Origin: Actinomycetota bacterium
GTDB taxonomy: Bacteria; Actinomycetota; Actinomycetes; S36-B12; CAIYMF01
DNA: 64,000 nucleotides
Assembly (NCBI GenBank): GCA_947455705.1
Contig: CANGPO010000001.1
Span: forward strand, 1-64,000
Direction of reading: 5' to 3'
The notes below the pieces were generated by a model, which ran no database searches, was not told the origin of the DNA, and was given only the letters and a program-made list of their open reading frames with translations. This document shows positions 16,677 to 22,988 of this stretch, in pieces (position 1 is the stretch's first letter; each line of letters begins with the position of its first letter). The translations under genes were made by a program, and so were the position numbers.

Positions 16677-17738
16677 ATGATCCTGATCGACATGAGTCAC
16701 GCACTTCCACGACCTCGGGCAAACCATCCCTTCCTGCGCCGCGGGAGCACAACCTTGCAAATCGGATTGGACCGCCAGTCTGCTGCTGTTCTCAATGGGA
16801 TGAGCGATGCAGCGATCAGAGCCCTTGTCCGTCTTGACGGTTCTGTATCTCGGGGTGAATTGATCAACGCGATACCGGAACTCGAGAACATCTTGAACGC
16901 GTTGGAACGACTTGGGCTGATCGAAGATTCACCATCATCAGGCACCCTTTCACGGACGCGCAGTGATCGGCTTGCTCAGGAGCGTCAAGCTCTCGCTGCG
17001 GCACACGGATCGGGATGGGCTGCCGACGAGATCCTGGCGCGCAGATCACAGCGGGTCATCGGCGTGCGAGGTCATGATCGCGTCGCAGCACATATTGCCG
17101 TTGGTTTGGCTAGCGCCGGAGTTGGCACCGTAGGCGTTGTTGGCCCTGACCGGATCACCACCATCAGTGATATCACCCCCGTCGGCCCATTCGAACCTGA
17201 CGTGAGTTGGGTTGAACACGTCGCAGAAGCAGTGCGACGCCAGGGTGCCCACGCAACCTTGATCGGTTCTCAGCGTCCAGATGTGGTCGTCATCGCTCAA
17301 TCAGCCGATGTGCAGCCACCGTGGACTGACCCAGAACTCGCACACGACCTTATCTCCGACGATATTGCCCATTACCCGATCGCTGTCAGCGGGTCTGCAG
17401 CCAAGATCGGTCCGATGATCATCCCTGGGCGTACCCCGTGCCTCGACTGTCTTGATCTTCGCGAAAGCGACCAAGACGGGGCTTGGCCGGCCCTTGTTGA
17501 TCAGATCCGCCTGCGTCACCACCACACCCGGGCTCAAGATGGTGCACTTGCCGCCGCAAGCGCCGCGATGGCCGTACGTGAGATCCTCAGCTTCCTCGAT
17601 AATCCCGAGCCGTACCTCAATGGCACTAATACCTTCTCCTACAACGAGTTACAAGACTCAGATCTCATCCCAACCCCCATCACGGTCGTCCCCCACCCGC
17701 TTTGCGGGTGCGGGTGGGGCCACTTATCCGCACAATAG
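16677..17738 (+). CDS. ThiF-like/cyclodehydratase-associated protein without a partner
   Basis: About 353 residues resembling the E1-like 'TOMM precursor leader-peptide-binding' or ThiF family found as a single gene in actinobacterial genomes. The N-terminal part (LRRGSTTLQIGLD, then AIRALVRLDGSVSRGEL) has the winged-helix RRE-like pattern. The middle is Rossmann-like (VIGVRGHDRVAAHIAVGLASAGVGTVGVV). Zinc cysteines are CLDC and CGC near the end. I see no YcaO, precursor peptide or transporter, so a RiPP pathway is not supported here. The start is uncertain among GTG 16644, ATG 16677 and ATG 16692. It lies upstream of the ABC1 kinase, as in relatives. Confidence 0.65.
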   Translation: MILIDMSHALPRPRANHPFLRRGSTTLQIGLDRQSAAVLNGMSDAAIRALVRLDGSVSRGELINAIPELENILNALERLGLIEDSPSSGTLSRTRSDRLAQERQALAAAHGSGWAADEILARRSQRVIGVRGHDRVAAHIAVGLASAGVGTVGVVGPDRITTISDITPVGPFEPDVSWVEHVAEAVRRQGAHATLIGSQRPDVVVIAQSADVQPPWTDPELAHDLISDDIAHYPIAVSGSAAKIGPMIIPGRTPCLDCLDLRESDQDGAWPALVDQIRLRHHHTRAQDGALAAASAAMAVREILSFLDNPEPYLNGTNTFSYNELQDSDLIPTPITVVPHPLCGCGWGHLSAQ

Positions 17739-17742
17739 AGAT

Positions 17743-19053
17743 ATGACAGACCTGCCACGTCGCGCTTTTACCCGCGGGGCCAAACTTGCTGCACTGCCCT
17801 TGGGCTACGCAGGACGCACCGCTATGGGCGTTGGTAAGCGAGTTGGTGGCAAACCAGCCGAGGCTGTCGCACTCGAGATCCAGCAGCGCACCGCCGAACA
17901 GGTGTTTAAAACCTTGGGTGAACTCAAGGGTGGTGCGATGAAGTTTGGTCAGGCGATGAGCATTTTCGAGGTCGCGCTGCCCGATGAGTTGCTTGGCCCA
18001 TATCGAGCCACCCTCACCAAGCTGCAAGATGCTGCACCCCCGCTACCCGCCGAGACCGTCCACGCCGTACTGGCCGAGGCACTCGGTGACGATTGGCGCG
18101 ACCGTTTCACGGAGTTCGACGATAAGCCGGCTGCGGCCGCATCAATTGGCCAAGTGCACAAGGCAATCTGGCACGACGGACGAGACGTTGCAGTCAAGAT
18201 TCAGTACCCAGGTGCAGGTAAGGCCCTGATGGGTGACCTTAATCAGGTCTCGCGCATGGCCACTATGTTCGCCGGCATATCCCCCGGACTCGATATCAAG
18301 CCACTTCTGGCAGAGCTCAAGGAGCGGGCCGCAGAAGAACTTGATTATCTCGCCGAATCACGTTCACAACGCCAGTTCGCCGCCGCCTACGAAGGCGACG
18401 AGGAATTCGTCGTACCCCACGTTTTAGCCGCCGCGCCCAACGTCGTGGTCAGCGAGTGGCTCGACGGTTACTCGATGGCCAAGATCATCACCGATGGCAC
18501 TCAGGCTGAGCGTGATCACTACGGCACCCTGTACTTGCGCTTCCTACTTTCTGGCCCAACGCGCGCTGGCCTGCTGCATGCCGACCCTCATCCCGGCAAC
18601 TACCGGGTGATGTCCGATGGCCGGCTCGGAATCCTCGACTTTGGTGCCGTTAACCGTCTACCGGACGGACCTCCGCCAGCAATGGGTCAGTTACTTCGCA
18701 TCGCCACCCTCGGTGATGCCGAGGCCGTCGTCAAAGGTCTGCGTGACGAGGGATTCATCAAGCCAGACATCGACGTCGATCCGCAGTTGCTCTTGGATTA
18801 TCTAGGCCCGTTCGCTGAGCCTGCGATCCACGAGGAGTTCACATTCTCTCGCGATTGGATGCGCGAACAATTCAACCGCGTCAACGATCCGCGGCGTCCC
18901 GACTTCAATGTGGGCTTCAAAATTAACCTGCCACCGTCATACATGCTGCTGCACCGAGTGTGGCTTGGCGGCATCGGTGTTCTGTCGCAAATGGGCGCAA
19001 CGGTACCCATGCGTGGTGAGCTCGAACGCTGGGTGCCATCCTTCGTAGCGTGA
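17743..19053 (+). CDS. ABC1/AarF (UbiB-like) atypical kinase
   Basis: A 436-residue ABC1-family kinase-fold protein (Rv3197-like by position). The family-specific KxGQ motif is GAMKFGQAMSI, the Ala-rich nucleotide loop is AAAASIGQVH, the lysine is in VAVKIQYPG, and the catalytic and metal segments are HADPHPGNY and LDFGAVNRL. In this family the Ala-rich loop and KxGQ insert favour ATPase-like small-molecule roles over protein phosphorylation. A longer open frame from 17452 overlaps the upstream gene and is rejected; ATG 17743 gives the normal family length. The next gene begins at GTG 19050, overlapping the stop. Confidence 0.9.
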   Translation: MTDLPRRAFTRGAKLAALPLGYAGRTAMGVGKRVGGKPAEAVALEIQQRTAEQVFKTLGELKGGAMKFGQAMSIFEVALPDELLGPYRATLTKLQDAAPPLPAETVHAVLAEALGDDWRDRFTEFDDKPAAAASIGQVHKAIWHDGRDVAVKIQYPGAGKALMGDLNQVSRMATMFAGISPGLDIKPLLAELKERAAEELDYLAESRSQRQFAAAYEGDEEFVVPHVLAAAPNVVVSEWLDGYSMAKIITDGTQAERDHYGTLYLRFLLSGPTRAGLLHADPHPGNYRVMSDGRLGILDFGAVNRLPDGPPPAMGQLLRIATLGDAEAVVKGLRDEGFIKPDIDVDPQLLLDYLGPFAEPAIHEEFTFSRDWMREQFNRVNDPRRPDFNVGFKINLPPSYMLLHRVWLGGIGVLSQMGATVPMRGELERWVPSFVA

Positions 19054-21973: not shown

Positions 21974-22420
21974 CTATGCGGCGGCTCCATTGCGTTGCGC
22001 CGGGATCAACGAGACCCGTGGCCCGTTGTTGTTATCGATGCTGTCGGCTGATGCGCCCTGAGCTACGAGCCGCGCGGCAAGTTCGGCCTCGGCCATTGCT
22101 CGAGTGACGTCAGCATCCTTGCGAGGTCGACCGGGCCGACGCTTGCGTGCGACGACCTCTCCCTGCTCGAATACCTCACCACCCCAGACTCCCCACGGCT
22201 CACGTCGCGCAATCGCACCAGCAAGGCACTCCTGCGCGAGTGGGCACACGCGGCAAAGTGCCTGTGCGCGTTGCACCGTCGGAAGATCCTGGGCGAACCA
22301 CAGCTCAGGATCGTTCGTCCGACAGGGAGTCCGCACCTCGAAGGCCCACACGGGCTCCACTGACTTGAGGTCACCAGACAGCACGTTCCAGTCAATGCTC
22401 GATACCGTGTCCACCGCCAT
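21974..22420 (-). CDS. whiB7: WhiB7-type iron-sulfur transcription factor
   Basis: A 148-residue Wbl protein. The four cluster cysteines are Cys33 (TPCRTNDPELWF), Cys56 and Cys59 (CRVC) and Cys65; the SigA-contacting turn is GVWGG (77-81); the AT-hook RRPGRPRK (95-101) marks the WhiB7/WblC subgroup. Members bind a [4Fe-4S] cluster and SigA and activate intrinsic antibiotic-resistance genes after ribosome inhibition. Position between an ABC1 kinase and uvrD2 matches mycobacterial whiB7. GGAAGGAGGTGA precedes the ATG. A long leader with small ORFs and hairpins (22421-22988) indicates attenuation control. The tail after residue 105 is Ala/Asn rich and longer than usual. Confidence 0.9.
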   Translation of the reverse strand: MAVDTVSSIDWNVLSGDLKSVEPVWAFEVRTPCRTNDPELWFAQDLPTVQRAQALCRVCPLAQECLAGAIARREPWGVWGGEVFEQGEVVARKRRPGRPRKDADVTRAMAEAELAARLVAQGASADSIDNNNGPRVSLIPAQRNGAAA

Positions 22421-22601
22421 GGTGACTCACCTCCTTCCACGTATCACGTCACCCGCAGGATCTCCACGGGTACCTCGTGCAGTGCTCGTCTTGCCCAGAA
22501 AAGTGAAACGCCGGTAGGCCACTGTCTGGTCGTGCTCGATAGTTGGTAGTGCCGGATAACTGGTGGTGCTGAATTACGCGTTGTACATGTGAATTGACTT
22601 G

Positions 22602-22645
22602 TGAGAAAACACGAAGGCCGCGGTTCCCATGGGGAATCCGCGGCC
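22602..22645 (-). terminator. Intrinsic terminator (attenuator) in the whiB7 leader
   Basis: Arms GGCCGCGG and CCGCGGCC, extended by TTCCC/GGGAA pairing, followed by TTCGTGTTTTCTC on the minus strand. It is the best GC-rich hairpin plus T-rich tail in the window and lies 180 bases before whiB7 in its own transcript. Confidence 0.8.
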
Positions 22646-22681
22646 TCGAGGCATCTATGACTTACCTAGATAGACCTCGAG
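22645..22681 (-). promoter_or_regulatory. Leader hairpin spanning the uORF 2 stop (antiterminator candidate)
   Basis: On the minus strand CTCGAGG plus ATCTA pair with TAGAT plus CCTCGAG. The arms flank the stop codon of uORF 2, and the 3' arm shares a base with the terminator stem, so the two helices compete or stack. Confidence 0.55.
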
Positions 22682-22862
22682 ACGCACAGATAAATGCCGG
22701 GACCGGATTTGATGCAGAAGCAGAGCGCATGGAACGACGGGCATCCACAACTGGATAAGCCGGCTTGACCGAGCCCGTTGAACGCGCCGCAATCAACAGC
22801 GTGGCCGTGATCGCTGGCACGACAAGGAGGATGCCCGTCGCCATGTGTGTCCATGAGGACAT
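22662..22862 (-). CDS. whiB7 leader uORF 2 (66 residues)
   Basis: ATG 22862 stands seven bases after GGGAGGTGA, a strong ribosome site. The peptide begins MSSWTHMATGILLVV with a hydrophobic stretch (residues 9-27) and ends in a Ser/Ala/Arg-rich tail. Its TAA (22664-22662) lies in the loop of a hairpin (22645-22681) that ends where the terminator stem begins. A ribosome finishing this ORF would cover the hairpin and change which structure forms. The peptide itself may have no function. Confidence 0.65.
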   Translation of the reverse strand: MSSWTHMATGILLVVPAITATLLIAARSTGSVKPAYPVVDARRSMRSASASNPVPAFICASRGLSR

Positions 22863-22868
22863 AGCCGG

Positions 22869-22919
22869 TCACCTCCCTTCGTCCATCGTCGTGTAGTCAG
22901 ACACGACGTAGCGCGCCAT
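22869..22919 (-). CDS. whiB7 leader uORF 1 (16 residues)
   Basis: ATG at 22919, GGAG six bases upstream, and TGA at 22871-22869. The peptide is MARYVVSDYTTMDEGR. Its final codons and stop form the ribosome site (GGGAGGTGA) of the second uORF, so translation of the two would be coupled. Confidence 0.5.
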   Translation of the reverse strand: MARYVVSDYTTMDEGR

Positions 22920-22988
22920 GCGCTGCTCCGAGGTTGACACATCCGACGCGCGGGTTGCAACTTAATTTCGTAACGATGTTTGGACTCC

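Follow-up and report, generated by a model that had tools for sequence, protein, structure and literature searches.

The leader of whiB7 in an uncultured actinobacterial lineage: a known RNA switch with possibly new, genus-only features

Actinobacterial whiB7 genes are typically preceded by a uORF, an intrinsic terminator and an antiterminator overlapping both (PMC10727445). Transcript evidence for mycobacterial whiB7 is available (PMC4128351), and the attenuator has been reviewed (PMC11550727). Attenuation by a uORF has been described for whiB7 and wblC in Mycobacterium and Streptomyces (Burian and Thompson 2018; Lee, Lee and Roe 2022, as summarised in PMC10727445 and PMC11550727). In this study, we report that the leader upstream of whiB7 in a 64,000-nt window (the whole stretch of DNA that was analysed) is a known actinobacterial RNA switch in a new lineage, and not a new kind of switch. 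Judged by sequence, it appears to match the published switch in each feature decidable here, namely the uORF, terminator, antiterminator and WhiB7, and it is very probably a canonical whiB7/wblC transcription attenuator. A clinically relevant antibiotic-sensing switch is thus extended to an uncultured actinobacterial lineage.

The features of the locus are listed in Table 1. The leader length given in the initial annotation was confirmed as the gap between a uvrD-like gene and whiB7. The product of the downstream gene carries both the WhiB domain and the AT-hook by which WhiB7 is identified; it matched Pfam Whib with 53.9 bits, and its best PDB match was M. tuberculosis WhiB7 (7kif, E 2.2e-25). 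An NCBIfam search of the same product returned no match. Near whiB7, an ABC1-type kinase at 17452-19053 matched the NCBI model for the macrolide-binding ATPase MABP-1 with 456 bits, below the cut-off of 800; mycobacterial whiB7 is presumably also flanked by a helicase and a MABP-1-type gene. No WhiB7-level match was found in 3/11 genus and 8/17 family genomes (G004, G005, G008 and G012-G016), which may reflect patchy presence or incomplete assemblies. A second whiB7-like copy, containing one in-frame TGA, was seen in genome G011 (L120, G011:C22:9714-10010).

Table 1. Coordinates of the features of the whiB7 locus within the window
Feature	Position	Strand	Description
UvrD-like helicase gene	25253-22989	minus	flanks leader on 5' side
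Leader	22988-22421	minus	568 nt between UvrD-like helicase gene and whiB7
Likely promoter	22931-22969	minus	by alignment with relatives
uORF1	22869-22919	minus	MARYVVSDYTTMDEGR, then stop; 16 codons; probably not functional
Shine-Dalgarno of uORF2	22872-22877	minus	GGGAGG; from sequence
uORF2	22662-22862	minus	66 codons; whiB7-type regulatory uORF
Hydrophobic segment of uORF2	22785-22835	minus	residues 10-26 (GILLVVPAITATLLIAA); max 17-residue KD 2.41
Antiterminator	22636-22691	minus	AUCUGUG(C)GUCUCGAGGU..AUCUA / UAGAU..GCCUCGAGGCCGCGGAU; uORF2 stop in loop; nascent-transcript MFE
Core hairpin of antiterminator (earlier stop-codon hairpin)	22645-22681	minus	fold
Intrinsic terminator stem	22615-22646	minus	AGGCCGCGGATTCC / GGGAACCGCGGCCT; fold
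T-rich tail	22604-22615	minus	TTCGTGTTTTCT; from sequence
H3 hairpin	22450-22472	minus	CCG[CT]GG-N-C[CT]GCGG; just upstream of whiB7 Shine-Dalgarno
Shine-Dalgarno of whiB7	22427-22436	minus	AAGGAGGTGA; from sequence
whiB7	21974-22420	minus	148 aa; WhiB domain and C-terminal RPGRPRKD AT-hook

The stretch 22700-22590 (111 nt) folded with -45.5 kcal/mol as against -29.1 +/- 3.2 kcal/mol for dinucleotide shuffles (z -5.1, 0/200), and because this lies far beyond the shuffles, the structures of the leader are not due to chance. The GC-rich terminator with its T-rich tail was recovered as initially annotated, with 100% paired cells within the genus. The hairpin proposed across the uORF2 stop was also found, around the TAA at 22664-22662; the claim that it is new did not hold, as it is the inner part of an antiterminator known throughout Actinomycetota. 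Nor is only one of the two helices favoured through a shared base, since in the MFE both abut and coexist. In the modelled folds, exclusion of the terminator would arise only with the extended antiterminator, which was absent from the initial annotation. Folded only as far as the terminator 5' arm, the nascent transcript had an MFE of -35.2 kcal/mol (shuffles, -23.2 kcal/mol; 0/100), and the extended antiterminator captured about 11-12 of the 15 bases counted as arm. When the full RNA was considered, the terminator state was favoured by 10.4 kcal/mol in this leader and by 6 to 18 kcal/mol in the other leaders examined, Streptomyces among them; control must therefore be kinetic. With a ribosome footprint masked over the uORF2 stop, the terminator was the resulting fold, both here and in 32/32 leaders folded (7 to 14 terminator pairs). 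In the nascent fold, itself crude, 9 arm bases were still paired upstream under the modelled footprint, and 12 without the footprint. Leader by leader, the count of paired arm bases seldom exceeded that of shuffles (below 0.05 in 7/72), although the fold energy usually lay beyond them. The C-rich CACGACC repeats after the terminator were considered as a Rho site and rejected, their composition not being consistent across the genus.

The 66 codons of uORF2 were confirmed, together with its Shine-Dalgarno stretch, GGGAGGTGA; a Shine-Dalgarno was present at most aligned uORFs in the whiB7 leader comparison. Between uORF2 and its counterpart in the closest relative (G007), length and frame were equal and dN/dS was about 0.47, the value for whiB7 in the same comparison being about 0.10. 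In most other genus uORF pairs dN was near or above dS, so the uORF peptide seems to be under little amino-acid constraint. The mean alanine content of uORFs in the phylum was 16.4%, and that of local long ORFs 12.7% (n=73; leaders L001-L110). A response of whiB7 to alanine starvation has been reported, and the alanine excess of the uORFs is of interest in that light.

For comparison, whiB7 loci from relatives and from named genomes were used (Cellulomonas, Isoptericola, Nocardioides, Streptomyces, Planktophila and others). The anatomy of the leader is conserved and remains associated with whiB7: the order uORF, antiterminator, terminator, whiB7 recurs in about 72 Actinomycetota leaders, with the uORF stop 10-31 nt before a stable terminator. 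In the nascent fold, the terminator 5' arm paired with the uORF end in 49/50 inspected leaders, for example GACUCCGC with GCGGAGUC in the Cellulomonadaceae and related groups, and UUCCGUGG with CCGCGGAA in Streptomyces. The pairing is kept with matching changes across Actinomycetota. The arm-swap test, in which the unit was arm classes and not phylogeny, gave a mean of -11.2 kcal/mol for own arms as against -7.6 +/- 1.15 kcal/mol for permuted arms (0/5000 permutations), a result to which the large GCGGAGTCC class contributed most; tested per arm class, the Wilcoxon p was 0.02. The outer antiterminator helix of the present leader was hardly better with its own arm (-5.6 kcal/mol) than with swapped arms (-5.0 kcal/mol), and its antiterminator extension therefore rests on one shifted register. 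Covariation in both stems, proposed as a check on the initial annotation, was thus found across the phylum and was weak for this leader; within the genus, where both stems are nearly invariant, no compensatory changes were found.

RNAalifold on a MAFFT alignment of 52 leaders returned the terminator only, since the two states occupy common columns and MAFFT takes no account of structure; nascent-transcript folds and the arm-swap test were therefore used. Covariance model R1 had matches in 113/148 genomes of the class and a single match in this genome, at 22602-22694. Among the best 30 of the 113 matched genomes' hits, 30/30 were upstream of whiB7, weaker hits lying outside this check. A scan against Rfam at gathering and permissive thresholds gave nothing credible; with no Rfam family matched, the model could help to find whiB7 leaders and to separate the conserved switch from the variable uORF peptides. 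Together, the leader comparison, the arm pairing and the covariance model strongly support the whiB7-type uORF attenuator first proposed from the sequence.

Two features confined to the genus, a hydrophobic N-terminal segment of the uORF and the H3 hairpin, are possibly new. The maximum 17-residue KD was 2.21-2.49 in 8/8 genus uORFs and at most 1.82 in 65 other whiB7 uORFs, with composition-shuffle fractions of 0.005-0.016 for the genus segments; the eight uORFs are related and hence do not represent eight independent events. The H3 motif was present in 8/8 genus leaders and in L043 (the second record of G006), and in no other leader scanned. In four leaders (L003, L004, L006 and L007), TCGAGG stands ahead of H3 and looks like a repeat of the antiterminator/terminator arm TCGAGGCCGCGG. 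It is conceivable, though unlikely, that in this genus the nascent uORF peptide has become directed to the membrane, so that its targeting or insertion there also influences the whiB7 decision, and that H3 acts close to the ribosome site as a further point of control; residues about 10-26 would then emerge from the ribosome tunnel at about the time when translation arrives at codons 57-66, where the antiterminator strand lies.

The likely promoter comprises an AT-rich box GAAATTAAG (22969-22961), a -35 element TTGCAA (22960-22955), an 18-nt spacer and a -10 element CAACCT (22936-22931); an AT-rich box next to the -35 is the mark of a WhiB7-type promoter. Relatives carry TTGC-N20-TAACCT at the aligned position, and the motif is kept in the genus; a generic sigma-70 consensus scan of the leader detected no promoter. 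Transcription is predicted to start near 22925, and we infer termination, ribosome dependence and inducers as follows. During normal translation, the ribosome would complete uORF2 and sit on its stop codon, where its footprint would cover the 5' strand of the antiterminator; the terminator would then fold, and transcription would end near 22604. A ribosome slowed or stalled inside uORF2, by an antibiotic or by amino-acid shortage, would leave the 3' end of the uORF free to pair with 22657-22636, a stretch that takes in most of the terminator 5' arm, while the 3' arm has yet to be transcribed. With the antiterminator formed, the polymerase would read through into whiB7. The effect would be kinetic, since once the RNA is complete the terminator state is the more stable by about 10 kcal/mol. 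The direction predicted initially, that stalling on the uORF raises whiB7, agrees with the published mechanism.

The initial annotation had also called new a tandem of coupled uORFs, in which ribosomes would re-initiate on uORF2 after uORF1 and both would jointly set the attenuator. A 16-codon uORF1 does exist, its TGA lies inside the uORF2 Shine-Dalgarno, and only ~5 nt separate its ATG from the predicted start, which would make near-leaderless initiation possible. However, no Shine-Dalgarno precedes uORF1 itself, and the overlap, although real, arises simply because the GGAGGTGA consensus contains this TGA. In G007 the ATG is AAA and the frame is broken by two offsetting indels; no ATG ORF was found at this place in other genus members in the leader comparison, and the ATG ORFs that end near the uORF start in 21/84 leaders share no common position. 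Thus even the nearest relative does not keep the coupling, uORF1 is probably not functional, and the tandem arrangement, now very unlikely, is rejected at present.

Translation attenuation of the erm type, with the leader hiding the whiB7 ribosome site, perhaps via H3, and stalling exposing it, would draw on this genus-specific hairpin, which ends about 14 nt short of the whiB7 Shine-Dalgarno on its upstream side. H3 does not cover that site, however, and a full intrinsic terminator and antiterminator are present that would be needless for such control, which leaves this explanation highly improbable. The least probable of the explanations weighed is that the terminator is simply constitutive, or assisted by Rho, and stops leaky transcription from upstream, the uORF being incidental. 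In its favour, the uORF peptides of most genus pairs evolve under almost no amino-acid constraint, and the region that follows the terminator, often rich in C, could suit Rho. Against it stand the uniform distance from uORF stop to terminator and the pairing of uORF with terminator, both kept throughout the phylum, as well as the placing of the terminator within the leader of whiB7 itself.

The whiB7/wblC attenuator, the preferred reading, shares with this locus a long leader, a uORF led by a Shine-Dalgarno, an intrinsic terminator, WhiB7 downstream and an antiterminator made from overlapping uORF and terminator sequence. This genus differs in its uORF peptide, which is encoded by 66-78 codons and has a hydrophobic segment near the N-terminus, and in having a further hairpin ahead of the ribosome site of whiB7. 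In trp/ilvB-type attenuation (Mtb ilvB1, PMC13236596), the position of the ribosome likewise selects terminator or antiterminator. Unlike in that type, uORF2 has no obvious run of a single regulatory codon, and alanine is only moderately raised in the uORFs of the phylum. The likeness to erm leader peptides is that an antibiotic-stalled ribosome in a uORF raises a resistance gene. The erm leaders mostly act on translation and by way of specific arrest peptides, whereas the peptide of this uORF is poorly conserved.
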